Shown: piece after piece, positions 16,400 to 37,714 of the stretch
How the letters are laid out: every line of letters starts with the position of its first letter
Position numbering within the stretch: the first letter of the stretch is position 1
Assembly: GCA_937959265.1 (NCBI GenBank)
Contig: CALGMA010000020.1
Span: 1-64,000, forward strand
Length of the DNA: 64,000 nt
From: an uncultured Anaerolineae bacterium
GTDB lineage: Bacteria > Chloroflexota > Anaerolineae > J036 > Brachytrichaceae
Direction: 5' to 3'
The notes under the pieces: model-generated
Databases searched by the model: none
What the model saw: only the letters and a program-made list of their open reading frames with translations
What the model was told of the DNA's origin: nothing
Made by a program: the position numbers and the translations under genes

Positions 16400-16408
16400 G
16401 CATAAGCG

Positions 16409-19826: not shown

Positions 19827-21272
19827 CTACGCGGATGATGCGTTGTGCTGGAGCAGGTCATATGCCTGCGCCAGCGCGTCTGGCCCACCCACGTTGCCAG
19901 GGAAGACGATGTAGATCGCGCCGGGGTAACGGCCTTCGGTGCCAAGACGCCATACCGGCACGCCGGGTAGCAGTTGGCCGAGCACCATTGCGCGCCCGAC
20001 GTTCAGCCCCTTCGTCGCAATATCACTCGAAGTGATGCCGCCTTTGGCCAGCAGGTAGCGCGGCTGGACAGCGATGCTGCGTACGATGGCGACCAAGCTA
20101 TCGGACACGCGCCGGCCGATGGCCAGGCTGGTCGTTGCGTCCGACCCACTGATGAGCCGGCGACTGGTATAGATCACGACGTCGTGACCTGATGCGAGCA
20201 ACGCTTCGGCGGTCTGCGTGCAGCGTGCAATTTCGCCCGATCTGGTGGTGTCATCGAGCAGTGCCTCGACGTTCGCCTCGATGGCGTTCATGCCGCGTCG
20301 CAGCAGCGCGTCAAGCTGCTCGGATGTCCTGGGCACATATGAGCCGACGATGATCAGCCCACCTGCGCGTGGGTTTCGAAAGCTCGTGAGGCTGCTCAGA
20401 TCTTGTGCGGACAACAGCGGCTTGGGCGCAATGCCGGCGCGTGCCCGTGCGAATGACGCAGCGGTGCGATATGAGAAACGGCTGCCTTCGGCCTCGGCCA
20501 TCATGCAGGCCAACGCCGTCACTTCGAGGTCGCGCTCGCTCGTGGCATTGACGATGCATGCGCTACCGGGTCGAACTGCTATCAGCCGATCACGCATGCG
20601 CTCCGGCCCGCCCAGGCGAACCTCGGCGATGGAGATGCTCATGACATCGTCTGCGCGGATCGCGCCATGTGTCTTCTCTTCCACCCATGTGCGCAGGTTC
20701 GAAGCGCGATAGCCGAATGCCGCATCGTGGGCGAATTCGGTCTCGCCTGCCGGCGTCAGATCGTCGCCATAGGCTACATAGTGCACGTCGTTGATCGTGT
20801 AACGACCACCGGTCAGGAAGGCGGGAATGATGAGGTAAGGGGGATTGCTTGTTGCGCAGTTTGCATCGCGCATGGCATTCACGAACGCATCTACTTCGCC
20901 GGGGAAGTGACCGCGCAGCGTGCTGTCGCTCCGGCTAATGACCGTGAACACACGCCCTACGGCGTGGCTAGCATCGCACAGGTTCCGCCCGATCTCCGCA
21001 TTCAGCGCTTGCGCCTCTGGCAGGGGCAGCGCGCGCGAGTTGGTGAGGATGTAGAAGACGGGTAGATCGTTCGACAGCTCGGCGCGCAGCGATTCCACTG
21101 ACCACTCGGTCAGCACAGGGATGTCATGCACGGTTTGCGTGCCGGTGGGGTCGTCGTCCAGCACGACGACTTTTTGTCCCGACTCACGCAGCCGGCGTTG
21201 GATCTCCGGCAACACGTCGCGCGGCCATTCCGGCGGCAAGCGGGCGAGTAGGTCACTTTTGCTGACGATCAT
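19827..21272 (-). CDS. four-carbon acid sugar kinase family (DUF1537; OiaK/OtnK/DtnK-like)
   Basis: A 481-aa cytoplasmic ATP-dependent kinase of the DUF1537 family. The N-terminal substrate-binding domain has L-D-D-D-P-T-G-T-Q (38-46). The C-terminal nucleotide-binding part has L-A-K-G-G-I-T-S-S-D and a later V-F-P-G-N-V-G. Known members phosphorylate D-erythronate, threonate or 3-oxo-isoapionate. With apnL- and apnO-like genes in the same run, 3-oxo-isoapionate kinase (OiaK) is the favoured guess. A tetronate kinase is the alternative. It is the last gene of the 18-kb run. Confidence 0.82.
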   Translation of the reverse strand: MIVSKSDLLARLPPEWPRDVLPEIQRRLRESGQKVVVLDDDPTGTQTVHDIPVLTEWSVESLRAELSNDLPVFYILTNSRALPLPEAQALNAEIGRNLCDASHAVGRVFTVISRSDSTLRGHFPGEVDAFVNAMRDANCATSNPPYLIIPAFLTGGRYTINDVHYVAYGDDLTPAGETEFAHDAAFGYRASNLRTWVEEKTHGAIRADDVMSISIAEVRLGGPERMRDRLIAVRPGSACIVNATSERDLEVTALACMMAEAEGSRFSYRTAASFARARAGIAPKPLLSAQDLSSLTSFRNPRAGGLIIVGSYVPRTSEQLDALLRRGMNAIEANVEALLDDTTRSGEIARCTQTAEALLASGHDVVIYTSRRLISGSDATTSLAIGRRVSDSLVAIVRSIAVQPRYLLAKGGITSSDIATKGLNVGRAMVLGQLLPGVPVWRLGTEGRYPGAIYIVFPGNVGGPDALAQAYDLLQHNASSA

Positions 21273-21281
21273 CTCAGCCTT

Positions 21282-21773
21282 TCACATACGGTCATTCGCT
21301 GCTACGTCGTCACGCTGCAGATGCGCCCAGGTGCGTTCCCAGGCGGCGATCAGCCGGTCGTCGAGTGGATCATTGTCGCTGTTCGCCACGCTTCCCTGTG
21401 TGTCGGGCCAGTCGGCCATCCGCTTTGTGCCCTCTTCCCATCTGATTGTGTAGCGGAAGCTCAGGTCACGTCGCGCAGCCGTGTTGTCAAAGATATTGTT
21501 GAACTGGAAGTGGGTGAGCGTCCAGTGTGCGGGATCGGCGAGGTTTTGGCTGGGCAGCAGTTGCGCCAATATCGCCGTAGGGATGTGCACCGGCGTCGGC
21601 TCCGGCGCGCCGATGGCCCACGCTGCGGTTTGGTGGTGCTGGTTCCAGGTGAGGAATTCCTCAACCGTGGGCTGGCCGCGATTGAAGTGCCACACGTCGT
21701 CGCCGCGTGCAGGGAGTTGCTCGGTGATCTGTGTGCTGATGAGCCCTGTGCCGCCGATGATGAGGATTTTCAT
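21282..21773 (-). pseudogene. internally deleted NAD-dependent epimerase/dehydratase
   Basis: The 163-aa frame begins with an intact nucleotide motif I-G-G-T-G-L-I-S and continues to F-N-R-G-Q. It then jumps to the C-terminal part typical of the family (E-F-L-T-W-N-Q, then V-H-I-P-T and F-D-N-T-A-A-R-R-D-L). Full members are about 320-340 aa. About 170 residues, including the S/Y-x-x-x-K active site, are missing while the frame is kept. It is probably inactive. It lies 9 bp upstream of the DUF1537 gene. Confidence 0.65.
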
Positions 21774-21785
21774 CTTCTCGATAGA

Positions 21786-22562
21786 TTACTTGACGTCGAA
21801 CCATTCCCCGGGCTTCAACACGTGTGCTGTGGGTGTGCTTTCGCCGCGCTTTCTCGCTTCGGCCAGTGCAGTGTGGAACTCGGCAAGGTCGCGTGCTGCG
21901 TCGGGGTGGTTCGGATCGCAGTAGTGACAGGGGAGCACCGTCGCCAGCCCCAGCCATTGCGCTGCCAGCGCCGCTTCGTACGGGCTCATCTCGCCGGTCA
22001 GAAATTCTCCTGCGCCCGGCACGCGCGACGCGACTTCCCAAGGCTCGGTGACGCCTATACAACCGATGGTCGGCCGGTGTAGTTCAGCAATCAGCTTCAG
22101 GTCGCTGAAGATCGCCGTATCGCCGTAGTGATAGAAGCGGCAATCGTCCAGATAGACGACGAACGACATGGGTACGCCGCTGGCGAAGCTGCCGTCCGGC
22201 ATTTGGAGCTGCGACCAGTGATGACACTCGACCGGATATACCTTGATGCCGGCGACGCGCACTGCAATGCTCCACGTCGTAGCGCGCACCTGCCCGGTGG
22301 GGATACCTTTGGCGATCAGGTAGTTCTTGATCTCGCCGCCGCAGACCACCGGCGCGTCGTAGCGTTTGGCGATCTGCTCCGTGTCGCCGAAGTGATCCCA
22401 GGCAGCGTGTGATACCAAGATGAGATCCACTCGTTCCAGTTCGTCGTGTTTGATCGGGCTGGCTGGATCGTCGTCGAGAAATGGGTCAATCAGGATGTGC
22501 TTGCCGTCGCCGGTGACAATCTCATACGCAGCCACGCCAAAGAAGCGAATGCGTGTTCCCAT
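21786..22562 (-). CDS. metallo-beta-lactamase fold hydrolase, UlaG-like
   Basis: A 258-aa MBL-fold protein from ATG 22562 (G-T-R-I-R-F-F-G-V-A-A-Y). The metal motif is present in variant form as S-H-A-A-W-D-H-F-G-D, with E-C-H-H-W and H-Y-G-D-T-A further on. The first His of H-x-H-x-D-H is shifted, which is common in UlaG/YtkL-like members. UlaG is L-ascorbate-6-phosphate lactonase, so a sugar-lactone hydrolase role would fit the surrounding acid-sugar genes. That substrate is inference. Confidence 0.75.
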   Translation of the reverse strand: MGTRIRFFGVAAYEIVTGDGKHILIDPFLDDDPASPIKHDELERVDLILVSHAAWDHFGDTEQIAKRYDAPVVCGGEIKNYLIAKGIPTGQVRATTWSIAVRVAGIKVYPVECHHWSQLQMPDGSFASGVPMSFVVYLDDCRFYHYGDTAIFSDLKLIAELHRPTIGCIGVTEPWEVASRVPGAGEFLTGEMSPYEAALAAQWLGLATVLPCHYCDPNHPDAARDLAEFHTALAEARKRGESTPTAHVLKPGEWFDVK

Positions 22563-22575
22563 GTAATCTGATCTG

Positions 22576-22647
22576 ACCACGAAGAGAAGAGATAAAGGCA
22601 CGAAGACAGTTGTTTAAGAAGACCTCGCGTCTTCGCACTTTCGTGGT
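22576..22647. repeat. imperfect palindromic repeat element with heptad structure
   Basis: ACCACGAAG at the left end is matched by CTTTCGTGGT at the right end, and the interior can be read in 7-bp steps (CACGAAG, AGAAGAG, ATAAAGG, CACGAAG). It fills the gap between the UlaG-like gene and the upstream dehydrogenase. A related element is at 32780-32844. Confidence 0.55.
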
Positions 22648-22655
22648 GAATCTCC

Positions 22656-23606
22656 TTAAGCAACGCGGTGCAACGGTGCTTGGCCGTTGAGCACGCGCAG
22701 GATGTTGTCCACCGTCACTTCGCCTAGCTTGCGCAGGCCGTCGTGCGTCTGGCCGGCGCTGTGCGGCGCAGCGATGAAGTTATCCAGTGCCAGCAACGGA
22801 TGATTCCCAGGCGGTTCTTTCTCGAAGACGTCGCACGCTGCGCCGGCGATGCGCCGTTCGTGCAGCGCTTGCGCCAGCGCAGCCTCATCCACCAGTTCGC
22901 CGCGTGCAGTGTTGATGAGGTAGGCCGTCGGTTTCATGCGCGCGAGCGCCTTGGCGTTGATCATATGGCGCGACTCATCCGTCACTGGCGCGTGAAGCGT
23001 GACAAAGTCCGACTCGGCGAGCAGCTCATCGAGCGGCAGATAGCGCACACCGTGTTCCTGGGCGAAATGCTCGTCTCGAAGCACATCGTGGGTGATGAGG
23101 CGCATGCCGAACGCTTTTGCCCGCACGACGACGGCGCGGCCGATCTGGCCCAGCCCAATGATGCCCAGCGTCTTATCGCGCAGCTCGACCCCGACCATGC
23201 GCGGCCACCGGCCTTCGCGCACGGCGCGATCACCCTGCGGAACTTGGCGTGCACACGCCAGCAACAGCGCCATTGCCATATCGGCTACGCTGTCGATGAT
23301 GGCGCTGCCGGCGATCGCCACCGGGATGCCACGCGCCTTGGCAGCGGCCAGGTCAATGTTATCGAAGCCAACGCCGTGTTTGGCGATGATCTTCAGCCTG
23401 GGCGCCGCATCGAGCACGCGCGCGGTGACCGGCTCGGTGCCGCTGATCAAGGCGTCAAAGTCGCTGATGGTGCCGGCTAGCTCTTCCTCGCTTGGCGCGC
23501 GTCCCCAGGGGTTGGCGACCAGCTCGACACCGGCGGATGTCAAACGTTGCACTGCGTCCGGGCAATTCGGCCCGAATGAGCGCGACGCGACTAATGCTCG
23601 GTACAT
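22656..23606 (-). CDS. 2-hydroxyacid dehydrogenase, phosphoglycerate dehydrogenase-like
   Basis: A 316-aa cytoplasmic NAD-dependent oxidoreductase. The Rossmann loop is G-L-G-Q-I-G-R-A. Catalytic residues are R in N-T-A-R-G-E, E in F-E-K-E-P-P, and H in A-P-H-S-A-G, all intact. There is no C-terminal ACT domain, so this is the short form used in glyoxylate/hydroxypyruvate/tetronate metabolism rather than regulated serine synthesis. In an acid-sugar cluster it may oxidise or reduce a C3-C4 acid. Confidence 0.87.
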   Translation of the reverse strand: MYRALVASRSFGPNCPDAVQRLTSAGVELVANPWGRAPSEEELAGTISDFDALISGTEPVTARVLDAAPRLKIIAKHGVGFDNIDLAAAKARGIPVAIAGSAIIDSVADMAMALLLACARQVPQGDRAVREGRWPRMVGVELRDKTLGIIGLGQIGRAVVVRAKAFGMRLITHDVLRDEHFAQEHGVRYLPLDELLAESDFVTLHAPVTDESRHMINAKALARMKPTAYLINTARGELVDEAALAQALHERRIAGAACDVFEKEPPGNHPLLALDNFIAAPHSAGQTHDGLRKLGEVTVDNILRVLNGQAPLHRVA

Positions 23607-23684
23607 GTTGATTCAGGTTAGGACAGAATGAACAGAATCTATAAGAGTTTCACCTTCGACACGGCCCTGCAAAACCATTCTGTC

Positions 23685-24356
23685 TCACAACAAACCCTCG
23701 ATTGCGAACGCGCGAATGGGCGATGCGTCCAAGCCGACGCACGGGATGGGTGCGCCGATGAAGAAGAAGCGCTGCGACGATATCGCGTCCAGGTTGCGCA
23801 GACATTCGACCACGGGGATGTCCACGTCGGCGCGAAAGAACAGGTGATGGTTGGGATGTTCGCTGCCGCGTTGACTGCGCACCTCGAAGCCCGACGAGTC
23901 GGTGCCGAGTAGCTTGATCCGCTTCTCGAGCGCCAGCCACTCGGCTGCATCCTCGGCAAGATACGGCCGCTGGTGCGAGGCCGACGTGCGATACTGCCCA
24001 TCGCGGCCTTCCCACAGGATGACGATGTCGCGCTCGCGCACATCGCCTGCCGCTCGGATGTCGGCCAGCGTAATCGGCTCGTTCACCTGCTTGTGCCGGA
24101 AGTCCAGCCGGATGGCCGGGCCGAGGAACGTGTCGAGCGGGTAGTTGGCGGTATCGCGCCCATCGGCGTAGAAGTGACGCGCCACCTCGATATGTGTGCC
24201 ACTGTGTGACCACATGTATATGTCGTGCATGATGTCGCCGGTCGGCGTCGTGCGCGGCGTCCCGCGCTGTTTGATCTCGACGGTGTATTGTTCCTCCCCA
24301 GGGATCAGGGTGTGCGTGAGGTCAATCAGTTTGTATGTGATATTTCCGTTTACCAT
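23685..24356 (-). CDS. cyclase family protein (kynurenine formamidase-like hydrolase)
   Basis: A 223-aa protein of the Cyclase fold (PF04199-like). It begins I-D-L-T-H-T-L-I-P-G and carries the metal-binding motif H-S-G-T-H-I-E (family consensus H-x-G-T-H-x-D), with a following H in A-R-H-F. Start at ATG 24356; the frame runs on to 24503 over the mevalonate kinase end. Family members hydrolyse N-formyl bonds or lactones, so a ring-opening role on a sugar-acid intermediate is possible. Confidence 0.8.
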   Translation of the reverse strand: MVNGNITYKLIDLTHTLIPGEEQYTVEIKQRGTPRTTPTGDIMHDIYMWSHSGTHIEVARHFYADGRDTANYPLDTFLGPAIRLDFRHKQVNEPITLADIRAAGDVRERDIVILWEGRDGQYRTSASHQRPYLAEDAAEWLALEKRIKLLGTDSSGFEVRSQRGSEHPNHHLFFRADVDIPVVECLRNLDAISSQRFFFIGAPIPCVGLDASPIRAFAIEGLL

Positions 24357-24420
24357 CTCATTTTTCCTTCGCCTTTTGTCTTCGGTAGTTCTGCGCGACT
24401 TGCCTATCTCCAATCTCCCA

Positions 24421-25464
24421 TTACTGGCGCGCCTCAATCCGCGCGCCGGGCACGGCGATATCTGGCATATACACCGCGTGTGCGCCGGCATTGCGCAATG
24501 CAACTGCTACGGCTTCGCGCGCCTCATCGGTGACCAGCGCAGTCATGATGCCACCGCCGCCGCTGCCGCTTAGCTTCGCACCTAGTGCACCGGCGCCGAT
24601 GGCTGCGTCAATCAGGCGCTCTAGCTCCGGGCAGCTCACGCCGATCTTATCCAACACAAGCTGATTCATGTTCATCAACCTACCCAACAATCTCCAATCG
24701 CCGATCTCCAACTTCTCTTGCGCTATGTCGCTCAAGGCTCCGATCATCTCAAAGTAGCGCATGCGTGCTACATCTACTGCGAGCCACGCGCGCACGTGTG
24801 CGTTCACTTCGCTGGTCTGTGCGCGCACGCCGGTGTCGCCGATCACGAGTTGGAGGCCCGGCGCAACTGGGATGCGCTCGCCCCATGCCTCGCGGGTGTA
24901 GCGAACGACGCCGCCGAGCAGCGATGTCTGTGTGTCCAGCGCCGAGGCGACGCCGCCGTGTGCGATCACATCGCCAGCATACGCCCACTCTCCGATCGTC
25001 CGGCGCTGTGCGGAGCTGTTCATGTCGAAGTCGGAAGCGAAAGCTGCGAGCGCCATCGCCAATGCTGTGTTGGCCGCGCCACCTGATCCCAGCCCGCCGG
25101 ACTTCGGGATTGCGCTCTGGAAGGTGATGTCCAACCCGTCTTTGATCGTCGGGATGTTGCGCAGCGCGTGCGCGATGATGTATTTCGCCGGTGCGAAGTA
25201 ATCTCGCGCAGCCAGTTCGCGGATCGCCTCGTAATGTGCCGCTTCGCGCCAGCGATCCACCTGCTCACCCAAGCTGATTACTTCGTCACGTGTGAAGGTC
25301 CGCGCATGGCCGGCAGTCTGCAGGTGGTATGGGTAACCGCCGCGCCGCACGGTGCAGCGCATGTGCAAGCCAACGCCGACAGCGATCGCGGCCTGCCCAC
25401 GATTGACGGCGTGTTCGCCGAACAAGATCGCCTTTGCTGGCGCGGTGGTCGTGACCTCGTCCAT
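24421..25464 (-). CDS. mvk: mevalonate kinase (GHMP kinase family)
   Basis: A 347-aa cytoplasmic GHMP kinase. Motif 1 A-P-A-K-A-I-L-F-G-E-H-A-V (8-20) and a C-terminal L-G-A-K-L-S-G-S-G-G-G-G match mevalonate kinase (ATP + mevalonate to 5-phosphomevalonate). The phosphate loop at 120-132 reads P-K-S-G-G-L-G-S-G-G-A-A with G for the usual second Ser. It is odd inside a sugar-catabolic run, so a different GHMP substrate cannot be excluded. DNA at 24674-24717 has the heptad repeat pattern but encodes an expected E-x-L-E-x-G-D-W-x-x-L-G-x-L-M-N helix. Confidence 0.8.
   Translation of the reverse strand: MDEVTTTAPAKAILFGEHAVNRGQAAIAVGVGLHMRCTVRRGGYPYHLQTAGHARTFTRDEVISLGEQVDRWREAAHYEAIRELAARDYFAPAKYIIAHALRNIPTIKDGLDITFQSAIPKSGGLGSGGAANTALAMALAAFASDFDMNSSAQRRTIGEWAYAGDVIAHGGVASALDTQTSLLGGVVRYTREAWGERIPVAPGLQLVIGDTGVRAQTSEVNAHVRAWLAVDVARMRYFEMIGALSDIAQEKLEIGDWRLLGRLMNMNQLVLDKIGVSCPELERLIDAAIGAGALGAKLSGSGGGGIMTALVTDEAREAVAVALRNAGAHAVYMPDIAVPGARIEARQ
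24674..24717. repeat. heptad-periodic repeat inside the mevalonate kinase coding region
   Basis: On the minus strand the sequence steps as GAAGTTG, GAGATCG, GCGATTG, GAGATTG, TTGGGTA, GGTTGAT. A related pair (TTGGAGA, TAGGCAA) sits just after the stop codon at 24396-24420. The 7-bp period crosses the codon period, so it is not simply a peptide repeat. Confidence 0.45.
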
Positions 25465-25491
25465 GTAGTTCAGAGGCGCGGCGATGCCCTG

Positions 25492-26301
25492 CTAGTCAGA
25501 GAAGTAGCGTGATCGCAAATACGCTATGCTTACAGCGGCCCATTGCTCCTCTAGTGCAATTGTCTCTTCGATCGTTGCCTGCTGTGGCACCCACTGTTCG
25601 AGGATCGCGTTGAAGTCGTGGCCGGCCAACTTCCTCAGCTTCGGCAGCAGCCAGTCGAGATCGCACATGCCCTGGCCGAACGGCGCGCCGTGAATGATGA
25701 ATCCGTGATGGCTCGGTAGGCGTTTGATCACATATTCTTTGATATGCAGGTTCACTGTATAAGGACCAAGCACTTCGGCGACGTGCGTCATTGGCTCTTC
25801 GCAGCCGAGCGAATTCGCTACGTCCAAGCAGATGCCGATCGGCGCGCCGCGCATCACGTGCATCAGGTTGGCGAGCGTCTTGGCGCGAAACCGGTCGTGG
25901 TTCTCGATGGCCAGCGTCACGCCGCAGCGCTCGAACTCCGGCAGTGCGGCCTTCAGCGAGGTGATGATCTCTTTGAAGTCCGGTTGGTGATCGGGCGTAT
26001 CAATCACACAGCGAAGGATTGGCGAACCGATGCGTTGCGCGATGCGGGCATACTGTTGCAGATGATTGTGACCGATGCCGCGCGTGCCGGCCTCCAGCGC
26101 GATGTCCAGCCGTCCGGCCTCTGCTGTCAATGCATCCAGATCGATTTCATGTAGCAGTATGTTGTTGGCGATCTGCACCACGCGCACACCAAAATCTGCA
26201 GCGCGCTGTAGCAACGTGCGCCAATCGAGCGGATTGGGCGGAGGAAAGCCGGTGATACCCACGCCCCATCCATAGGTATACGAGCCGATACCAAGTTTCA
26301 C
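25492..26301 (-). CDS. oiaC: sugar phosphate isomerase/epimerase-type TIM barrel, 3-oxo-isoapionate decarboxylase (OiaC)-like
   Basis: A 269-aa xylose-isomerase-like TIM barrel (AP_endonuc_2 fold). A GTG start at 26301 overlaps the stop of the upstream gene as GTGA. The N terminus is V-K-L-G-I-G-S-Y-T-Y-G-W-G. Metal-site acids appear at E-A-G-T-R-G-I-G, I-E-N-H-D-R-F and C-L-D-V-A-N-S. In apionate pathways such a protein decarboxylates 3-oxo-isoapionate to L-erythrulose. Tight coupling with the ApnO-like gene supports this; a plain sugar epimerase is the alternative. Confidence 0.7.
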   Translation of the reverse strand: MKLGIGSYTYGWGVGITGFPPPNPLDWRTLLQRAADFGVRVVQIANNILLHEIDLDALTAEAGRLDIALEAGTRGIGHNHLQQYARIAQRIGSPILRCVIDTPDHQPDFKEIITSLKAALPEFERCGVTLAIENHDRFRAKTLANLMHVMRGAPIGICLDVANSLGCEEPMTHVAEVLGPYTVNLHIKEYVIKRLPSHHGFIIHGAPFGQGMCDLDWLLPKLRKLAGHDFNAILEQWVPQQATIEETIALEEQWAAVSIAYLRSRYFSD

Positions 26302-27143: not shown

Positions 27144-27194
27144 GTGCGAATTTGACTCGTGGCTAGGAATACCAGACATGGAGACATGACCTTG

Positions 27195-27974: not shown

Positions 27975-27979
27975 GATCC

Positions 27980-28083: not shown

Positions 28084-28088
28084 GTTGC

Positions 28089-29854: not shown

Positions 29855-29858
29855 GGTC

Positions 29859-29922: not shown

Positions 29923-29927
29923 GTGAC

Positions 29928-31490
29928 TTACGGATATGCGTTTGTGCCCAGTTGCTTTTGCCAGTCTTCGTAAGCCGCTTTCTGGCTTCCTGCGCCGATG
30001 CGCTCGGTGATGGCGTTCCACTCCTCGGCGGCTTTGTCCAGCGCTGCCTTCGGGTCGCTGCCGGCGTAAGCTGCAGTGATGGCGCGGTCCAGCGCTTCCT
30101 CGTATTCACGTGCGCCAGGGATGCCCAAATCAGCCAGGCCGTTGGCGGCGCCTTCCTGGAGCACCTTCAGATACTCTGAGGCGTTCGGCCATAGCTTGGC
30201 ATACTCTGGATCGTTGAAATGGCTCATGCGATAGGGGTCGCGCAGCGCGAACGGGATCTTCACGCGCTGTCCGCTGATCTCCGGGCTGGTCAGCCACTGG
30301 ATGAACGCGTAGGCGGCTTCTTTGTTCTTGCTGTTCGATGAAATGCCGAGCATGAAGCCGACTGCCAATTCAGAATGACCGCCCGGCGACACGGCGTAGC
30401 CCACCTTGCCTGCGACGTTGGTCTTGGGTACCCATTCCAATTGTTTGCTCTCTAAGCCGTATCCCTCACTCCAGCGGCCGATCGGCGGCCAAGTGATGAT
30501 CATGCCCAGTTTGCCGTCCATCCAGGCTTGCAGCACCTCGACGAAGCCCCACTTCTCGATGCCCGGCGGCATGTGCTTGTTGGCGTTCACCATGTCGGTC
30601 AGCGTCTTCACGCCGATGTCGCTGTTGATGGCCGCCTTCATGTCGGCGTCGAAGAAGCGACCGCCGTTGCTGCGGAACTGCTCGTAGAACCACAGATAGG
30701 TGTTGCCGGCGGTGCGTTGGATGGCGCATCCGTATTCGTTATTGGCCTTGCTGCGCTCGGTGAAGAAGCTGCACACTTCGTCCCACGCCTGCCAGGTCTT
30801 CGGTGGAGCAAGCTCACGGTTGTACTTGGCCTTGAAGTCCGCCTTGTTCTTGTCGTCCTCGAACCAGTCGCGGCGGTAGTACATGACGAAGACGTCGCCA
30901 TCGTCCCACAAGCCGTAGGTTTTGCCTTTCCACTGCTGATACTTGGCGTAGGTGGAGTGCAAGTCGCTCAGGTCGTTCTTGTCCATATACTGCTCGATGT
31001 AGGCGTCGAGCGGTTCGAGCACGCCGCCGTCGGCCAGATCCGCTAGCCAGGTGGGTGCGAAGTTGAGCACATCGTAGGCGCCGCCGCCGGCTTGGTGATC
31101 GGCTACTGCTTTAGAGAACAGCTCAGTGAATGGTGTCTCGATCACGTTGACCTTCACGCCGGTCAGCCGTTCGAACTCCGGCGCGCTGAACAACAGCGGG
31201 TCCTGAGACTGCAACCCGGCCTCCCAAGTCACATTGAGCGTCACGCCGGCGTACTTCTTGGCTAGCTCGATGGCTCGCGCTGCAGAGCCTCCCGTTTTGG
31301 GCGGCATGGCGGTCATCACGGCTGCAGCAGCCACTTGTTCGGCCTGGCCTTCGATTTTGCCGACCGGATCTGCCGGGCGAGTTGCCTCGGCAGCCGGTGG
31401 CGGGGCAGCGGGCGGCGCGGCGCATGCTGTCGCAACGATCGCGCTAGCGATCGAAATGGCGAACATATGCTTCAGGGCGTTCATGTTCAT
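29928..31490 (-). CDS. sugar ABC transporter substrate-binding lipoprotein
   Basis: A 520-aa family 1 solute-binding protein, longer than the usual 420-460 aa. Start at ATG 31490 after AGAGGAG. The signal peptide ends A-T-A-C-A-A-P, giving a lipidated Cys near residue 23, followed by a Pro/Ala linker. The mature part has Y-D-V-L-N-F-A-P and a Trp-rich T-W-Q-A-W-D region expected of a carbohydrate cleft. As receptor of the importer in the island, apiose-type ligands are the working guess. Confidence 0.88.
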   Translation of the reverse strand: MNMNALKHMFAISIASAIVATACAAPPAAPPPAAEATRPADPVGKIEGQAEQVAAAAVMTAMPPKTGGSAARAIELAKKYAGVTLNVTWEAGLQSQDPLLFSAPEFERLTGVKVNVIETPFTELFSKAVADHQAGGGAYDVLNFAPTWLADLADGGVLEPLDAYIEQYMDKNDLSDLHSTYAKYQQWKGKTYGLWDDGDVFVMYYRRDWFEDDKNKADFKAKYNRELAPPKTWQAWDEVCSFFTERSKANNEYGCAIQRTAGNTYLWFYEQFRSNGGRFFDADMKAAINSDIGVKTLTDMVNANKHMPPGIEKWGFVEVLQAWMDGKLGMIITWPPIGRWSEGYGLESKQLEWVPKTNVAGKVGYAVSPGGHSELAVGFMLGISSNSKNKEAAYAFIQWLTSPEISGQRVKIPFALRDPYRMSHFNDPEYAKLWPNASEYLKVLQEGAANGLADLGIPGAREYEEALDRAITAAYAGSDPKAALDKAAEEWNAITERIGAGSQKAAYEDWQKQLGTNAYP

Positions 31491-31813
31491 ATCGCTTTCT
31501 CCTCTTCTTTCTGTAGACGGAATACGAGACGCAGACATCACTGCTCACGCAGGCGACGAGTTCAACGACCTGCATGAGGTTTGTGTTGCCCGCCTTGCGC
31601 AAATGAACGTTTGTGATTGCCCGGCAACTGAACCTGCGAGGAAGGTTCTCGGGCCGAGCATACTTTCATCGAGTCATGTCGCAGATCGTTTGCAGTGCAT
31701 CACCTCCTCAGAGAACCAGAAGTCAGACGTCAGATAACCGATCGCCATTCTCCGTTCTCAACTCTCAACCCTCAATTCTCAACTCTCAATTCTCAATTCT
31801 CAATTCTCAATTC
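31491..31813. other. 323-bp intergenic region with heptad repeats, otherwise no gene seen
   Basis: Between the PanE-like gene and the binding-protein gene. It holds the binding-protein Shine-Dalgarno, a minor heptad stretch (AACCAGA, AGTCAGA, CGTCAGA, TAACCGA at 31715-31742) and most of the long repeat block at 31755-31831. I see no convincing ORF or RNA gene in it. Confidence 0.6.
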
Positions 31814-31831
31814 TCAATTCTCAATTCCAAA
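31755..31831. repeat. long heptanucleotide tandem repeat (unit TTCTCAA)
   Basis: Ten consecutive 7-bp units: TTCTCAA seven times, CTCTCAA twice and CCCTCAA once, then a degenerate TTCCAAA. The last units overlap the 3' end of the PanE-like gene (stop at 31814-31816), so the repeat encodes its final residues. The same unit in opposite orientation occurs four times at 35054-35081. Confidence 0.92.
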
Positions 31832-32749
31832 CGTCTCCTCCAACGACTTGATCAACCACACCATTGTGTCGTTGTAGGGTGTGGGAATGCCGAAGCGCCG
31901 GCCGGCTTCGACGATCGCGCCGTTGATCACATCAATCTCGGTGCGACGCTTGTGCTCGATGTCGGTCGGCATTGAACCCTTGAGGGTCGGCGCGATGCGC
32001 TCCAGCAAGCCCGTGATCGCATACCATCGCTCGTCGTAATCCATCGGAATGCCCTGAGCGTGGGCCACTGTGACCGTCTCCCTGAGCAGCGCGGCCATCA
32101 AGTCTTTCATGCCTTGATGTTCGATCAGCTTGCACGCCTCCCAGGCGAAGATCGCTGCCGTGGGCAATGTGCAGGCGTTCAGCGCCAGCTTCGACCAGAT
32201 CTCTTTCATCACACTGTCCGATTCGGTCACCTCGAAGCCTGCCGTGCTGAGCGCCTTGGCGAAGGTATGCACGCGTGCGCTTGCGCCGGCGGGCAGCTCG
32301 CCGACATACGTCATGCCGGCACCGCCTTGCAGCACATGGCCGAGGCCTCGGAGTGCGCCGCTGTTGTAGGTCACACCGCAGAAGACTTTGTCGTCGCCGG
32401 CGATGGCTTGAATCCTGGACGCGTTCCCCCAGCCGTTCTGCAGCGACACCACGGCTGTGTTCGGCCCAATCATCGGTAGCGCTGCCCTCACAGCGTCCTC
32501 GGTGTGGTAGCACTTGGTGAACACCAGCACGTAGTCCTGCTCGCCGGTGCTCGCCGGGTCGGTTGTCGCGCGCGGCCTGGTGAGGATTCGGTCGCCCGAC
32601 TTGTCTTCGATGATCAAGCCTTGCGCATTGATGTGAGCGACTGCAGCCGCGTTCACATCCACCAGCGTCACGTCATAGCCGGCGTGGGCCAACCGTCCAC
32701 CGAACACAGCGCCCATCGCGCCAGCGCCGCCCAATACTGTAATTTTCAT
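31814..32749 (-). CDS. ketopantoate reductase family protein (ApbA/PanE-like)
   Basis: A 311-aa NADP-dependent reductase from ATG 32749. The N-terminal motif is L-G-G-A-G-A-M-G, the catalytic Lys region is L-A-L-N-A-C in the second domain, and Asn/Glu binding residues are in the C-terminal helix bundle. The true PanE makes pantoate for CoA. In a sugar-catabolic run a paralogue reducing a branched 2-keto or 3-keto acid is equally likely, so no symbol is given. The 3' end is formed by a heptad repeat. Confidence 0.8.
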   Translation of the reverse strand: MKITVLGGAGAMGAVFGGRLAHAGYDVTLVDVNAAAVAHINAQGLIIEDKSGDRILTRPRATTDPASTGEQDYVLVFTKCYHTEDAVRAALPMIGPNTAVVSLQNGWGNASRIQAIAGDDKVFCGVTYNSGALRGLGHVLQGGAGMTYVGELPAGASARVHTFAKALSTAGFEVTESDSVMKEIWSKLALNACTLPTAAIFAWEACKLIEHQGMKDLMAALLRETVTVAHAQGIPMDYDERWYAITGLLERIAPTLKGSMPTDIEHKRRTEIDVINGAIVEAGRRFGIPTPYNDTMVWLIKSLEETFGIEN

Positions 32750-32779
32750 GTCGCTTCCTCGCTCACAACAACGCTTTTC

Positions 32780-32844
32780 ATCACGAAGTGATGAAGACGC
32801 AGGGGAGTTTGGGAATAGCGCGTTCATGTCTTCGTGGTTTAACC
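32780..32844. repeat. palindromic CACGAAG-type repeat element
   Basis: CACGAAG and GATGAAGACG on the left face CATGTCTTCGTG on the right. It is related to the element at 22576-22647. It spans the gap between the PanE-like gene and the epimerase and overlaps the epimerase stop codon. Confidence 0.5.
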
Positions 32845-33837
32845 GTTAGCCGCGCTGTGATATCGCTGCGTCGTCTCGATATACTCCCTGATCCCTTCGC
32901 GGATGTCGCTGAACTTCACCCTGTAGTTCAGTTGCTCCTCCGCCGGCTTCATGTCGTGCACGCCACGATATTTGATGCCCAGCTTATCTTGCTCTGACAA
33001 CCCGCTATCTATCTCGATCTGTGCTTCGGGAATGAACTCTCGGATGATCTCTGCTACCTGGCCGGCAGTAGCCAGCTTTTGGCCGGTTGCGGCGTAGAAC
33101 ACGCGGTGTTTGAGCCGGTCAGCCGGCGCGTTGAGTGCTGCCGCAGCGATGCCGGCGATATCGTGCACGTGCGTGTAGTCACGCGGGAACTCGCGGCCGC
33201 TGGTGAAATGCACCGGCTCGCCGCGCACAGCCGCGTCTACCATCGTGTTGATGAAGATGGTCGGGTTGGTGGTGTAGAAGCCATACGCCGCCGAAGGCCG
33301 GATGATGACGAAATCCAGCCCGTAGCTGCCGTGATACGTCCAGCAAAACGCCTCGCCGGCTACTTTGGCTGCGCCATATGCACCACTGCCCGGTCCCTGA
33401 TCTGCCATCAGCACCGGATGGTTCGCATCTATCGGCTGATATTGGATCGCCGGCAATACGCCGATTGAGCTGAAGAACACCAGCCGCTCGATGTCAGAAA
33501 GCCGGCATGCCTCGAGCACGTTGATCGTGCCCACGACCATCACGTCGAACGCCATCTTCGGGTTGCGGTTCAGGCTCAGCAAGTCAATCGGCGCGGCGAG
33601 ATGCGCAATCTTGTTCGGCTTGTGCTTTTTGATCACCGCCATCAACTGCGGCCAGCTTTCGATGCCACCCGGTTCGAAGGCGACGCTGCCCTTGTAGGGG
33701 GTAATCAGCCAGTCGAGCTGTGGACCCCAAGGGCGCATGTCATAGTTGATTACGCGGTCGCCGCGCTCGACGACTTGCTTGGTCAGGTGCGTTCCGATAA
33801 AACCGGATCCGCCGATGATCAAAACTGTGTCTGCCAT
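32839..33837 (-). CDS. NAD-dependent epimerase/dehydratase family protein
   Basis: A 332-aa extended SDR from ATG 33837 (M-A-D-T-V-L-I-I-G-G). The cofactor motif is G-G-S-G-F-I-G, the active-site Y-x-x-x-K is Y-G-A-A-K, and an upstream Ser is in F-F-S-S-I-G. Extended SDRs act on nucleotide sugars, sugar acids or lactones, and in the apionate context a sugar-acid dehydrogenase is possible. It is intact, unlike the deleted homologue at 21282-21773. Confidence 0.85.
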   Translation of the reverse strand: MADTVLIIGGSGFIGTHLTKQVVERGDRVINYDMRPWGPQLDWLITPYKGSVAFEPGGIESWPQLMAVIKKHKPNKIAHLAAPIDLLSLNRNPKMAFDVMVVGTINVLEACRLSDIERLVFFSSIGVLPAIQYQPIDANHPVLMADQGPGSGAYGAAKVAGEAFCWTYHGSYGLDFVIIRPSAAYGFYTTNPTIFINTMVDAAVRGEPVHFTSGREFPRDYTHVHDIAGIAAAALNAPADRLKHRVFYAATGQKLATAGQVAEIIREFIPEAQIEIDSGLSEQDKLGIKYRGVHDMKPAEEQLNYRVKFSDIREGIREYIETTQRYHSAANG

Positions 33838-33860
33838 GGCTCGATGCAAACCTCATGCGA

Positions 33861-33937
33861 GTCGTATGTCGTATCGCGTATTTCGTCGGTGTGCGCATTG
33901 ACACAAGACGTAAGGCGCGAAACGCAAAACATGAAAT
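33861..33937. repeat. heptad repeat blocks upstream of the epimerase
   Basis: The left block reads GTCGTAT, GTCGTAT, CGCGTAT, TTCGTCG (33861-33888). The right block reads ACAAGAC, GTAAGGC, GCGAAAC, GCAAAAC, ATGAAAT (33903-33937). The right block resembles the GTAAGAC block at 28021-28083. It occupies the 122-bp gap downstream of the apionate lactonase-like gene. Confidence 0.65.
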
Positions 33938-33959
33938 GTGGATGCGATATCGTTGTTGC

Positions 33960-35858
33960 TCATGCGTCAATCCTTGCGATGGCACAGGGGGGCAGTGTGA
34001 TCGTCCGATCGCCAAATGGCGTACCTGTGTCGGCGCGCCAGGCTTCCGGTCGTTGCATGGCGCGATTTGCTGATGCCTCATCAAGCAGCTTGATTCGCGA
34101 ATTCGACGGCAGGCCGTGCAGCGTCACTGTCTGCGGCCTGTCGGTCAGGTTGGCCAGCAAGATGCGCAGGCGCTTCCCCCTGCATAACACCAAACCCTCT
34201 ACAGCCAGAGGGTCGCTCGACCGAGATGCAACGACCCGGCCGCCGAACTCGGCCACATCGGCAAAGATGTGATACGTTGGAAAGACGATGCGCCCATTCA
34301 TCACGCCGCGCTTGCCGGTCGTCTCGTAGATCGTGATGCTGCTCGCACCGCCGGCCTGTGCAATGTGCTTCAAGCTGGCGACCGTCCAGCCTGCGCCGAA
34401 CAGCGACATCTGCCGAGGATCGAACTCGCCGCGTCGGTCGTCCGGTTCCGGCCCGGGGTCGCCCAGCGTCCAGCGCGGCTTGAGCGTGATCGGTGTGATG
34501 GCGAGTGGGGCGCCTTTGGCGAAGGCCTTGTAGGTGCGAATCGTCTCCCCTTGTGCTTCGGGTGATTCGGCAAGCGAAGCGTGGTCGAACGCGTGCACCT
34601 GCGGGTTGAACGAGTAACACAAGCCGTCCACCAGATCCCGCATCGCACGGCTTGGGCGGTTGCAATTCAGCTCGGTGAAGAACTTGTTGGTGCCGCTGTA
34701 GATGACGGCGCGTTTACCCAAGCAGCGCCGCGCGAGCGCCAGCCAGCGTTCGCCGGTGCGGTTCTCGCTGCGATGGAAGACGAGATAACGGGCGATAGGC
34801 GCAGACGTGCTGTGGCGTGCCTCTTCAAAAGCTGTCAATTCTCCTTCCGCGTCGTCCGATACGAACAGACCGATCTCCAACGCTGCGCCGAGTGCCTTGG
34901 CCTGCTTCGCCGCACGCTTCAGCCTGGCCAGCCAGTCCTGCGCCCACATCGGTAGGTCCACACGTAGATGTGCCAGTTTCAACGCACGTAACCGCTCGAT
35001 CTGCCTCGCCGTGAGCGTCTTGCCATCGGCGGAGACGCACATGCCTACCTTTGGAATTGAGAATTGAGAATTGAGAATTGAGAAAGTAGTCCCCCCGCAC
35101 GGTCGTATCTTGATTCTTGACTCTTGGTTCTTGCTTCTATCAACTTCCAACGTCAGCGTGATCTTCTGCCGCAACCGCTCGCCGGCTTTCACTTCGATGG
35201 GGAAGGGCAGTCGCAGCGGCGTGCAGTAGGTCTTGTACGAGCCATCGGTCCAGTTGCGCTGGTCTTCCATCTCGAAGACCTCTCCTTCAAACGTGATGCG
35301 CAGCCACGCGCCTGGTGCGATCTCGTGGCTCAGCGCGCGCATCTCGTCGAACGGTGAGACCGGCTTGATGACGCCGTCAATCACCATCTGCGGCGCAATA
35401 CGACGGGGAAAGGTGGCCTCGGCGATCGTCCCGTCCACCTTCTCGATGCGCGCCCGCGCGCCGGCCAGACGCGTCGGATGCAGTACGCACAGGCCCAGCC
35501 TGTTGCGCCGGAAAGTGCAGCGCGCGACGCCGTCGAAGGTGAACGCGATCGTCCCGTTCGTGTCGCCGGTTAGATGCCCTTCCCAGACGAAGTCAATGTC
35601 GTTCAGCCGGTTCTCGCATATGTAGCGCGCCTCGAACACCTCTTCGCCCGTGTCCACATGGACGTCGCTGAGGACATTCGGCGCTGTGCCCCAGGCGCGG
35701 TCGCGTGTGGCGACATAGATGCGCCGCACGACCTCGCGCTCACCGTAGCGGACGTAGCGCAGGTCGCCGTTCTCATAGATCATCGTCAATGGCCCGGCGC
35801 GCAGCGGAATACGCTCCGGCACGGGTCGTTCGCTGCCAAACAGGATTCGGCTATCCAT
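33960..35858 (-). CDS. apnL: D-apionate lactonase (ApnL)-like protein
   Basis: A 632-aa protein matching the three-part ApnL family: A-G-P-L-T-M-I-Y-E-N-G-D-L-R-Y-V-R (21-37), R-D-R-A-W-G-T (52-58), L-G-L-C-V-L-H-P (121-128), M-E-D-Q-R-N-W (197-203), then a TIM-like middle domain and a small C-terminal beta domain. ApnL opens D-apionolactone to D-apionate. Residues 241-269 are an extra linker encoded by heptad repeats (35054-35137). It lies next to the Gfo/Idh/MocA dehydrogenase that would supply the lactone. No signal peptide, so cytoplasmic. Confidence 0.75.
   Translation of the reverse strand: MDSRILFGSERPVPERIPLRAGPLTMIYENGDLRYVRYGEREVVRRIYVATRDRAWGTAPNVLSDVHVDTGEEVFEARYICENRLNDIDFVWEGHLTGDTNGTIAFTFDGVARCTFRRNRLGLCVLHPTRLAGARARIEKVDGTIAEATFPRRIAPQMVIDGVIKPVSPFDEMRALSHEIAPGAWLRITFEGEVFEMEDQRNWTDGSYKTYCTPLRLPFPIEVKAGERLRQKITLTLEVDRSKNQESRIKIRPCGGTTFSILNSQFSIPKVGMCVSADGKTLTARQIERLRALKLAHLRVDLPMWAQDWLARLKRAAKQAKALGAALEIGLFVSDDAEGELTAFEEARHSTSAPIARYLVFHRSENRTGERWLALARRCLGKRAVIYSGTNKFFTELNCNRPSRAMRDLVDGLCYSFNPQVHAFDHASLAESPEAQGETIRTYKAFAKGAPLAITPITLKPRWTLGDPGPEPDDRRGEFDPRQMSLFGAGWTVASLKHIAQAGGASSITIYETTGKRGVMNGRIVFPTYHIFADVAEFGGRVVASRSSDPLAVEGLVLCRGKRLRILLANLTDRPQTVTLHGLPSNSRIKLLDEASANRAMQRPEAWRADTGTPFGDRTITLPPCAIARIDA
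35054..35137. repeat. heptad repeats inside the apnL-like coding region
   Basis: GAATTGA occurs four times in tandem (35054-35081), then a 28-bp spacer, then TTGATTC, TTGACTC, TTGGTTC, TTGCTTC (35110-35137). The two blocks use different units but the same 7-bp period. On the coding strand they specify a Ser/Asn/Gln/Ile/Lys-rich linker between conserved domains. Confidence 0.88.
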
Positions 35859-35904
35859 AGCTTCGTTTGTCTGTGATTCGGCGCTATTCCTGTGCGCGTC
35901 CCGG

Positions 35905-36933
35905 CTATACCAGTTGAATAACGCGGTTGTCTGCTGCAGCGTCGTAAGCTGTAAACACCAGCCGGACCGTGTTCAAGTTGTCCTCGCCGGTCGTCTCTGC
36001 TGCGCCTTCGCCGCGCAGCGCGCGCCGTAAGTTGGCATTGCACGGCACGATGCTGCTGTGCACAATGTCGTACGCCGGATCGGCCCAGGCATAGTGCGGT
36101 GGCGGCACGCGGCGTGCGAGTGTGCCATCTGCCGTCGTCACCCGCAGCCAGAAATCCGGCCCGACTTCGATCGAGCCGCGTTCACCTTCGATGAAGAAAT
36201 AGGTCTCCGGGAAGCGGTCGTGCTCCAGGTAGTTCTCGGCGTAGGCCATGTTCACGGCGACGATAGTGTTTGCCTCGCCCATCGCCATGATCATCGTTGC
36301 CACGTCCTCGCCTTTGATGTCCGGGTGAACCCGGCGCGTCTGGCAGTACATGCTGCGCGCCTCGCCGAATAGGAAGCGTGCCACGTCGAGTGTGTGGCTG
36401 CCCAGGTCGGTGATGATGAACTGTTCCAGCTCGGCCAGGAACGGCTGGTTCTTGAACACTGGGAAGCCGGAGATCATGTCGATGCGTGCCCGGAACGGTC
36501 GGCCGATGCGCCCTTCGTCCAGCGCGGCCTTTAGCGCGCGGATCGGCGTTTGCCAGCGCCAGTTCTCGTGGATGAAAAGCGGCACACCGGCCTCGCGACA
36601 CGCTCGCACCATCTCTTCCGCAACGGTGAGGGAAGAGGCCATCGGCTTCTGGCAGATCACCGGGATACGGCGCTGTGTTGCCAGCAGGGTGAACTTGGCG
36701 TGCGTGTCTACGTCGGTGATGATGTCAACGAAGTCGAGCCGCTCGGCGTCCAGTAGTGCCTCGGCGTCGTCGTAGACGCGCGGCACGCCGAAGCGTTGCG
36801 CCAGCTTCTCGGCCTTTGACCGGGTGCGGTTGTAGATGGCGACACATTCCACACCGCCAACCTCATACCAGCCGGCCAGTTGGAACTGCGCCCAGAACCC
36901 GGCGCCGAAGACGGCGAATTTCAGGTGGGACAT
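35905..36933 (-). CDS. Gfo/Idh/MocA family oxidoreductase, candidate D-apiose dehydrogenase
   Basis: A 342-aa NAD(P)-dependent dehydrogenase. The N-terminal Rossmann motif is G-A-G-F-W-A-Q, the catalytic Lys-Pro is C-Q-K-P, and the second-domain D-L-G-S-H-T-L-D-V-A motif carries the conserved His and Asp. D-apiose dehydrogenase (ApsD), which makes D-apionolactone, belongs to this family, and the gene sits directly before the apnL-like gene. The family is broad, so the substrate remains a context-based guess. It starts 4 bp after the gntR stop. Confidence 0.8.
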   Translation of the reverse strand: MSHLKFAVFGAGFWAQFQLAGWYEVGGVECVAIYNRTRSKAEKLAQRFGVPRVYDDAEALLDAERLDFVDIITDVDTHAKFTLLATQRRIPVICQKPMASSLTVAEEMVRACREAGVPLFIHENWRWQTPIRALKAALDEGRIGRPFRARIDMISGFPVFKNQPFLAELEQFIITDLGSHTLDVARFLFGEARSMYCQTRRVHPDIKGEDVATMIMAMGEANTIVAVNMAYAENYLEHDRFPETYFFIEGERGSIEVGPDFWLRVTTADGTLARRVPPPHYAWADPAYDIVHSSIVPCNANLRRALRGEGAAETTGEDNLNTVRLVFTAYDAAADNRVIQLV

Positions 36934-36937
36934 GATG

Positions 36938-37714
36938 TCATCGGGGTGTGCGCGCGGCCTTCACTCGTAACGACTTTGCAGCGCGACGCGATTTTGACTT
37001 CTCGTCTTGCATCGCCAGTGCCTTGCGCAGCGTGTCCTCCGCCTCGATCAGGTGGTCGCGCATCGCTTCGCGCGCACCTTCAACGTCACCGGCCTGCACC
37101 TGGTCGAAGATAGCCTTGTGATAGCGGTACGAACGCGCCGGCGCGCCCAGCGTGCGGAAGGCGAGCTGACGCACTTCGATCATCAGCTCGTTGACCGATT
37201 CGAGCAGTAGTGGGAAGAGCCGGTTGTGCGTAGCTTGGGCGAGCGCCTGGTGGAACGCCAAATCCCATTTCACATAGCGGTCACGGTTGTCGCCGACCTT
37301 TAGCGTTTCTTCGAGGATGTGTGCCATCTCCTGCAGGTCTTCCGACGTGCGACGTTGGGCAGCGAAGCCGGCGATGGCGACTTCCAGCACGCGCCGCACT
37401 TCGATCAGGTTCTCGTAGTCCAGCGTGCGCGCGTCGCCGCGCAGAAAGAGCGCCATCATCTCGCTCATCGTCTCGGCAGTGGGCAGGCGCACGATCGTGC
37501 CGCTGCGACCGGGCGTCACCTCCAGGAGACCTTTGGCCACCAGCCCGCGCACTGCCTCACGCACCACCGTCCGACTGACGCCGAACTGTTCGGCCAGGTC
37601 GCGCTCGGCGGGCAAGCGGTCGTTGGGCTTAAGCTGCCGTTCCGTGATCAAGTCCTGAATTTGCCGTCTGACGAGTTCAGATAGTGTCGCTTCGCGTTCG
37701 ATTTTCTGAAACAT
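36938..37714 (-). CDS. GntR family transcriptional regulator, FadR subfamily (FCD domain)
   Basis: A 258-aa DNA-binding regulator. The N-terminal winged helix (about 1-75) has the family strings L-P-A-E-R-D-L-A-E-Q-F-G-V-S-R-T-V-V-R-E-A. The C-terminal FCD domain, with His/Asp metal ligands such as D-L-A-F-H-Q-A-L, binds a small organic acid. It is the first gene of the 18-kb run, ends with a basic tail, and carries a palindrome over its own start, implying autoregulation and control of the apiose/apionate genes by an intermediate. Confidence 0.92.
   Translation of the reverse strand: MFQKIEREATLSELVRRQIQDLITERQLKPNDRLPAERDLAEQFGVSRTVVREAVRGLVAKGLLEVTPGRSGTIVRLPTAETMSEMMALFLRGDARTLDYENLIEVRRVLEVAIAGFAAQRRTSEDLQEMAHILEETLKVGDNRDRYVKWDLAFHQALAQATHNRLFPLLLESVNELMIEVRQLAFRTLGAPARSYRYHKAIFDQVQAGDVEGAREAMRDHLIEAEDTLRKALAMQDEKSKSRRAAKSLRVKAARTPR

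Follow-up and report, generated by a model that had tools for sequence, protein, structure and literature searches.

A probable D-apiose/D-apionate utilisation island of the Candidatus Roseilinea type, with a linked GHMP-kinase module, in a Chloroflexota genome

The sugar apiose occurs in rhamnogalacturonan II (RG-II), a pectin crosslinked by boron, and in many plant glycosides. The question raised by the locus described here is whether a long run of genes on the minus strand of a 64,000-nucleotide stretch of an uncultured Anaerolineae bacterium (contig CALGMA010000020.1; the whole stretch is hereafter called the window) serves the use of this sugar, and along which route. We consider it likely that the run at 19827-37714 is a D-apiose/D-apionate utilisation island of the Candidatus Roseilinea type, in which two alternative branches lie behind one entry. 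The class of pathway is known; what is new is its Chloroflexota version with ApnO and OiaC and the GHMP-kinase module linked to it. With such an island, the use of apiose would reach into a deep phylum whose members are mostly uncultured.

An earlier annotation made from the letters of the window (the sequence-only reading) had seen here one minus-strand run of about 18 kb in a likely Chloroflexota host. All the reading frames that it named are open on the minus strand at the coordinates it gave, and the gene limits agree. The genome belongs to Chloroflexota, class Anaerolineae, and the record found to be closest is that of a Candidatus Roseilinea metagenome-assembled genome (93% identity in ApnO), so that the phylum had been guessed correctly. 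The run consists of 17 reading frames, from the regulator gene (36938-37714) to the DUF1537 kinase gene (19827-21272). With one exception the intergenic gaps are shorter than 115 bp, the largest being 311 bp, and 4-bp overlaps occur in two pairs, namely the two permeases and ApnO/OiaC, the latter as already reported. The earlier gene list has to be amended at two points, because the GHMP kinase at 24421-25464 had been left unnamed and the epimerase at 21282-21773 is an internally deleted remnant. The features are the following.

37713-37724, no strand: candidate operator, perfect palindrome ATGGTATACCAT, covering the regulator start codon
36938-37714, minus: FadR/FCD-type GntR regulator (PF07729 98 bits, PF00392 66 bits)
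35905-36933, minus: Gfo/Idh/MocA dehydrogenase, ApsD-like; would convert D-apiose to apionolactone
33960-35858, minus: ApnL homologue (NF049900 270 bits); would hydrolyse apionolactone to D-apionate
32839-33849, minus: NAD-dependent epimerase/dehydratase-family protein, possible second sugar dehydrogenase (PF01370 128 bits)
31814-32746, minus: PanE/ApbA-type ketoacid reductase (PF02558, PF08546; TIGR00745 238 bits, cut-off 141)
29928-31541, minus: ABC importer substrate-binding protein (PF01547 137 bits)
28955-29854, minus: ABC importer permease (PF00528)
28089-28958, minus: ABC importer permease (PF00528), with a 4-bp overlap with the neighbouring permease
27195-27974, minus: SDR oxidoreductase, gluconate 5-dehydrogenase-like, GHMP-module member (PF13561 200 bits)
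26298-27143, minus: ApnO homologue with PGDH_C domain (PF16896 174 bits); would convert D-apionate to 3-oxo-isoapionate
25492-26301, minus: OiaC homologue, AP_endonuc_2 barrel; would decarboxylate to L-erythrulose
24421-25464, minus: GHMP kinase, mevalonate-kinase paralogue, GHMP-module core (TIGR00549 179.7 bits)
23685-24365, minus: PF04199 cyclase-family metal hydrolase, GHMP-module core (PF04199 90 bits)
22656-23606, minus: D-2-hydroxyacid dehydrogenase, GHMP-module member (PF02826 220 bits)
21786-22556, minus: UlaG-like metallo-beta-lactamase-fold hydrolase (NF001911 148 bits, cut-off 144)
21282-21773, minus: NAD epimerase gene remnant with an internal in-frame deletion, only two ends retained
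19827-21272, minus: DUF1537 acid-sugar kinase, not OiaK (PF07005, PF17042)

The entry of the proposed pathway lies in the ApnL and Gfo/Idh/MocA genes. The ApnL-like lactonase appears to have been named correctly, as it matches the curated model NF049900 over its full length and keeps the conserved residues. Its 270 bits are far under the curated cut-off of 750, and for this reason it need not be identical with the assayed enzyme; the Sinorhizobium meliloti pSymB protein, taken as control, scored 835. In an alignment of 35 sequences (33 from Chloroflexota, together with those of S. meliloti and Mesorhizobium), the window protein deviates at 0 of the 87 columns conserved in at least 33 sequences, and its stretch F195-E-x-E198-D-Q-R-N-W203-x-D205-x-S207-x-K209 is found in S. 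meliloti as well. A structure model of ApnL obtained from a three-sequence alignment was poor (mean pLDDT 40). On pSymB the ApnL and Gfo reading frames overlap, with the end of an ApnO-type gene 5.5 kb upstream; the window Gfo, ApnO and ApnL proteins are 40, 52 and 30% identical to these counterparts. The likeness to this ApnL-linked Gfo, and linkage to ApnL in 12 of 37 genomes, suggest that the window dehydrogenase belongs to the ApsD-type family, as had been proposed. Neither the window protein nor the reference protein matched a curated ApsD model.

The two following steps are represented by an oxidoisomerase and a decarboxylase candidate. The ApnO-like protein retains 55 of the 56 residues that are near-invariant among 26 ApnO-type sequences (the exception is H108 in place of Tyr), and its PF16896 match (174 bits) and its linkage to ApnL likewise favour the name that it had been given. 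Its closest PDB chain by sequence is 5t57 (251 bits). In the ApnO tree the Roseilinea clade was unresolved beside sequences linked to OiaK and OiaX, and the Erwinia row stood on a very long branch. For the OiaC-like barrel the identities are 37% with proteins of Rhizobium and Shinella and 31% with one of Erwinia, the last encoded among ApnO-, TIM- and Dha-kinase-type genes. Among the best 30 of 41 plasmid records, scores dropped from at least 135 to 87 beyond the OiaC-type group. This relationship to ApnO-linked OiaC-type proteins, together with an adjacency to ApnO that recurs in the class, points to the decarboxylase that the sequence-only reading had predicted. Neither the window proteins nor the reference proteins matched any curated ApnO or OiaC model. 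With regard to the product, contig C8 of the window genome contains two DhaK/DhaL pairs and an RpiB-type gene in a single stretch, genes that by their families could be fit for the use of L-erythrulose. In G006, a genome of the same genus, a TIM-type candidate for the L-erythrulose-phosphate isomerase lies beside Dha kinases, and the RpiB-type protein scored 176 bits for DerI (cut-off 240).

The distribution of ApnL was determined in 396 genomes of the class. NF049900 was found in 37 of them and never over its cut-off. These searches score the best few candidates per genome (ApnL 3, GHMP kinase 5, PF04199 protein 7), and absences are therefore not proofs. All 37 ApnL neighbourhoods were read, many of them shortened on one side by contig ends (the shortest is 3.1 kb), and neighbours were counted with fixed tblastn bit thresholds set by eye. 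They contained OiaC (20), ApnO (18), Gfo (12), an epimerase-family gene (8), a UlaG-like gene (6) and DUF1537 relatives (6, window genome included); OiaK- and OiaX-type genes occurred together with ApnL in four. At the level of whole genomes, PF16896 was found in 22 of the 37 (7/10 plus 15/27) and OiaC-type proteins in 24. Genes of the apiosidase family PF13204 were searched in 27 of the 37, and 8 of the 41 above-cut-off matches lie within 6 kb of ApnL as compared to 0.13 expected, a limit picked after inspection of the table. This table has 49 rows, from which three over-cut-off matches from ApnL-less genomes and five under cut-off were dropped. Six of the eight genes near ApnL scored more than 230 bits, the remaining two 81 and 36. 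Homology, conserved residues, linkage to ApnO, OiaC and Gfo, and apiosidase-family neighbours, taken together, make apiose the most likely substrate of the island, as far as sequence can tell. As a separate observation, ApnL lies 0.4-1.5 kb from an apiosidase-family gene in G140, G343, G388 and G308 (L132, L121, L118 and L128), four genomes that gave no match for ApnO or GHMP kinase.

The genes interleaved with those of the oxidative pathway are present as described earlier, and they turned out not to be incidental, since the GHMP kinase, the cyclase, the 2-hydroxyacid dehydrogenase and the SDR form a recurrent ApnL-linked module that elsewhere also occurs without ApnO and OiaC. When the class was searched with the island GHMP kinase, 10 of the 396 genomes were found at 214 bits or more, the next matches being mevalonate-kinase-like and not exceeding 146. 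Each of the ten also belongs to the 37 with ApnL (hypergeometric P 1.5e-11, four being one genus), and in all ten the kinase gene lies inside the ApnL neighbourhood. Relatives of the PF04199 protein (23685-24365) at 231 bits or more, or cut by the contig end in G001, were found in the same ten genomes and in G129. This last genome gave no ApnL match in the class search; it carries SIS, Rpe-type and PF04199 genes in one stretch (L196 7086-10647), where no ApnL or kinase match was seen.

The pattern was then tested on 400 genomes sampled from the phylum. The kinase, at E below 1e-44, was found in six of these, of which four were new and lay outside the class. In the four new loci PF13204 was over its cut-off throughout (229, 229, 68 and 76 bits), ApnL was present in three (329, 284 and 342 bits), and neither ApnO nor OiaC was matched within the stretches read. 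G660, a 10.9-kb contig, contains Gfo, SDR, dehydrogenase, Rpe-type and PF04199 genes and no ApnL, and G535 shows in a single run the order regulator-Gfo-apiosidase-importer-GHMP-PF04199-Rpe-dehydrogenase-SDR-ApnL-zinc alcohol dehydrogenase (ADH). Over the 14 GHMP loci we counted ApnL in 13, PF04199 in 12, the 2-hydroxyacid dehydrogenase and the SDR in 11 each, Rpe-type and Gfo genes in 8 each, OiaC in 5 and ApnO in 4. PF13204 was over cut-off in 7 of the 14 (G001, G016, G049 and the four new loci), and all 14 have ApnL or an apiosidase-family gene. The GHMP kinase, the PF04199 hydrolase, the 2-hydroxyacid dehydrogenase and the SDR exist as a linked module. Plasmid records yielded one distant annotated mevalonate kinase only. 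In the literature searched, which largely leaves subscription journals outside its coverage, no description of a GHMP-kinase apiose branch and no paper on apiose in Anaerolineae was found; judged from listed titles, work on apiose and GHMP kinases deals with plants or nucleotide sugars. The suggestion of a possible new variant holds for the module.

Outside Roseilinea the GHMP kinase and ApnO tend to occur apart. Among the 37 ApnL genomes, 18 have ApnO without the kinase, 6 the kinase without ApnO, 4 both (all Roseilinea) and 9 neither. The six kinase genomes without ApnO (G016, G040, G049, G108, G121 and G329; 90-98% complete) gave no PF16896 match genome-wide, and five of them no OiaC match at E 1e-15, while G016 has a 35% OiaC relative. 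The gene order in G329 is ApnL-GHMP-PF04199-Rpe-SIS-2-hydroxyacid dehydrogenase-SDR-regulator-zinc ADH, and in G049 the run of the module includes Gfo and an apiosidase-family gene (272 bits). No PF13204 gene was found genome-wide in G121, G329 and G040.

The GHMP kinase scores over the curated cut-off for mevalonate kinase (MVK; TIGR00549, 179.7 bits, cut-off 163) and would thus be named mevalonate kinase, an annotation to be corrected if our reading holds. A housekeeping MVK was ruled out for 24421-25464, since a better-scoring one is present in the same genome (G000:C8:541831, 234.7 bits) and since the 14 island kinases fall into a clade of their own (support 100/100) in a tree that includes 10 mevalonate kinases of ApnL genomes. 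As in mevalonate kinases (6mde and 2hfu are of this family), the residues K11, H18, S174 and D177 are conserved in 14 of 14 island kinases; they align to Lys9, His16, Ser135 and Asp138, named for the Methanosarcina enzyme in PMC6283576. In contrast, three and four residues past the substrate-binding His, Asn21-Arg22 occur in 14 of 14 island kinases in place of the Val-Tyr found in 10 of 10 MVKs. Such a change at the pocket rim, with the catalytic residues intact, would suit a more polar acid. D-apionate is, like mevalonate, a C3-branched 3-hydroxy acid with a terminal CH2OH. This resemblance, and the fact that the kinase gene adjoins ApnL in G329, G108 and G121, make phosphorylation of D-apionate our first guess, a tentative one to which we give somewhat less than even weight; L-erythrulose kinase is the second. 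The structure model of the kinase, again from a three-sequence alignment, was poor (mean pLDDT 36).

The pathway that we propose would begin with the uptake of apiose or an apioside by the ABC importer. The Gfo/Idh/MocA dehydrogenase would oxidise apiose to apionolactone, which ApnL would open to D-apionate. In the first branch, ApnO would form 3-oxo-isoapionate and OiaC would decarboxylate it to L-erythrulose, which Dha-type kinases from another part of the genome could phosphorylate. In the second branch, the product of ApnL would be processed without ApnO and OiaC by the GHMP kinase, the PF04199 hydrolase, the 2-hydroxyacid dehydrogenase and the SDR, assisted in relatives by an Rpe-type epimerase; the kinase might phosphorylate D-apionate and the dehydrogenase might then oxidise the phosphorylated 2-hydroxy acid. 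That these enzymes, the Rpe-type epimerase included, constitute a complete ApnO-independent apiose pathway of Chloroflexota, with an MVK-derived apionate kinase at its entry and running parallel to ApnO/OiaC in Roseilinea, is a reading that we put forward with more reserve, as possible and rather doubtful. If true, a second apionate route would explain the use of the sugar in genomes with ApnL and apiosidase-family genes and without ApnO.

Could the island instead encode a single ordinary oxidative apiose pathway, in which the GHMP kinase is an L-erythrulose kinase replacing the Dha-type enzyme and the other genes are auxiliary? In the window the kinase gene begins 27 bp past OiaC, and the GHMP, Rpe-type and SIS genes, the latter at two loci (G329 and G108), would match the kinase, epimerase and isomerase of a tetrulose route. 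However, in the five kinase genomes that gave neither OiaC nor ApnO matches no known enzyme would make L-erythrulose, the position of the kinase gene next to ApnL in three genomes does not fit, and the window genome already holds its two DhaK/DhaL pairs. We regard this explanation as unlikely.

It is also improbable, in our view, that an analogue of apiose, some other branched or C5 sugar, is used by the island, with ApnL- and ApnO-like proteins that have diverged in substrate. The low ApnL score and the 30% identity would agree with it, as would the Mesorhizobium ApnL homologue found with aldolase-family and 2-hydroxyacid dehydrogenase-like genes, and PF13204 is a broad family. Against it, the ApnO-ApnL-Gfo linkage and the conserved residues are common to the curated S. 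meliloti locus, and ApnL is linked to OiaK/OiaX-type genes in four Anaerolineae and to apiosidase-family genes.

The DUF1537 protein had been assigned to the OiaK family, an assignment that failed: it scored 30 bits on the OiaK model NF042436 (cut-off 700), 54 bits on the D-threonate kinase model (cut-off 450) and 34 bits on the 3-oxo-tetronate kinase model. Two OiaK-type references, themselves under the cut-off, scored 505 bits (Halalkalicoccus, beside ApnO- and OiaX-type genes) and 536 bits (another Chloroflexota, beside ApnO- and OiaC-type genes). OiaX was likewise sought and rejected, as no OiaX-type RuBisCO-like match exists in the window. That OiaC and OiaK routes are both present in the island is thus very improbable, although a DUF1537 kinase is there and kinases related to it occur near ApnL in 6 of the 37 genomes, since this score, the missing OiaX-type match and, in G041, the position of the window-type DUF1537 group next to an HpcH-type aldolase gene all speak against it. 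Of the early oxidative steps, each of which had been credited with a homologue, ApnL-, ApnO-, OiaC- and ApsD-like Gfo genes are found and OiaK is not. The G041 cluster itself (L016 13950-17048), with a second ApnO copy, the HpcH-type aldolase, a window-type DUF1537 kinase and a 2-hydroxyacid dehydrogenase, is possibly a further apionate-like branch.

Several observations weigh against a two-branched apiose island. ApnL is 30-31% identical to the references and well under the curated cut-off, and the curated S. meliloti ApnL departs from the consensus at 15 of the 87 conserved columns (72 of 87 shared). Apiose is inferred from neighbours, and PF13204 is broader than the proven apiosidases; the window genome has no PF13204 gene within 6 kb of ApnL, its matches over the cut-off lying at C6:137561 and C20:109505 (405 and 239 bits). 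The mutual exclusion of ApnO and the GHMP kinase depends on how the genus is counted (Fisher P 0.0045 outside Roseilinea, 0.019 with the genus as one, 0.14 with all four), few candidates were scored per genome and some genomes are incomplete. The Roseilinea island also lacks the Rpe-type gene of the second branch, and no TIM paralogue was detected in the window-genome stretch that matches the Dha region of G006.

The two-branched island would be controlled by its FCD-GntR regulator, probably through the palindrome at the regulator's own start codon. This protein was rightly described as FadR-type GntR/FCD on the basis of its two domains, and it reaches the cut-off of none of the curated subfamilies listed. 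ATGGTATACCAT is the only match in the 64 kb at one mismatch or fewer (0.06 expected). Its position is the same in G004 and G006 and its core is kept in three relatives; in G001 it is found about 5 kb further upstream, with two inserted permease genes and a weaker PF13204 gene (80 bits) between it and the regulator gene. Outside the window, 603 kb of ApnL loci contain perfect TGGTATACCA four times (three Roseilinea, one G303), as compared to 0.2 in shuffles, and the shorter GGTATACC is not enriched in these loci (7 vs. 7.1). An operator motif general to ApnL loci was ruled out, considering that perfect TGGTATACCA is present at only these four places. The palindrome may resemble UxuR/ExuR operators, a likeness that the paper searched did not confirm.

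In the same-genus genomes G001, G004 and G006 the order of the island is largely preserved, at 65-95% protein identity, and therefore is not due to chance. G006 has it nearly whole; in G001 it reaches the contig end inside the PF04199 gene; G004 has no Gfo gene, and a different SDR precedes ApnL. All three have additional permease genes near the regulator. As to the importer said to belong to the island, a binding protein and two permeases are there, and a complete importer is not, as no ATPase gene is present in the island. The remnant at 21282-21773 retains two ends of a protein whose uninterrupted copies in G006 and G016 align with each other over about 345 residues without a change of frame.

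Oxidative D-apiose pathways running through ApsD, ApnL and ApnO, and then through OiaC or OiaK/OiaX/OiaT, were reportedly described by Carter et al. in 2018. The island is like them in having dehydrogenase, lactonase, oxidoisomerase and decarboxylase homologues in one run, and differs in the approximately 30% identity of ApnL, the lack of OiaK, the added GHMP-kinase module and the Chloroflexota host. The S. meliloti pSymB locus (CP140948.1, L027) similarly has ApnO-, Gfo- and ApnL-type genes within 8.3 kb, whereas its importer is of ribose type and its 26-kb stretch has no OiaC or GHMP-module match. The plasmid of Erwinia sp. E602 (NZ_CP046581.1, L031) shares adjacent OiaC- and ApnO-type genes; it differs in its Dha-type kinase, TIM-type isomerase and RpiB, with no ApnL, Gfo or GHMP-module match in its 21-kb stretch. 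The study of Carter et al. 2018 is cited in PMC6302742, and a growth-tested cluster is reported in PMC11747546. The non-oxidative D-apiose pathway of Escherichia and Pectobacterium, with AplK and the AptA/AptB transketolases according to PMC13001218, shares the sugar and uses an isomerase, a kinase and a transketolase in place of lactonase and oxidoisomerase. On a Mesorhizobium ciceri plasmid (L026 5359-13950) we observed an ApnL homologue of 617 bits, under the cut-off, whose neighbours are an importer, a gene of the aldolase family and one resembling 2-hydroxyacid dehydrogenases; ApnO and OiaC gave no match in this stretch.

Some minor features were also noted. Metallo-beta-lactamase-fold enzymes usually have the motif H-x-H-x-D-H; at this position the UlaG-like protein and its G041 relative have H-A-A-W-D-H, and metal binding may therefore differ. 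Near the island, on the plus strand at 13873-17317, genes for a binding protein and two permeases make up a second ABC importer of sugar type. The lineage is described as photoheterotrophic in PMC8446752, and contig C7 of the window genome has at 17679-18602 a RuBisCO large-subunit match (PF00016, 453 bits), the only PF00016 match in the genome. Finally, a 7-bp tandem repeat (ATTCTCA / GAATTGA) is present at 31747-31827, between the binding-protein and PanE genes, and again at 35054-35084 inside the ApnL frame, where it encodes FSILNSQFSIP, a peptide that is also found in the ApnL genes of L013 and L014.

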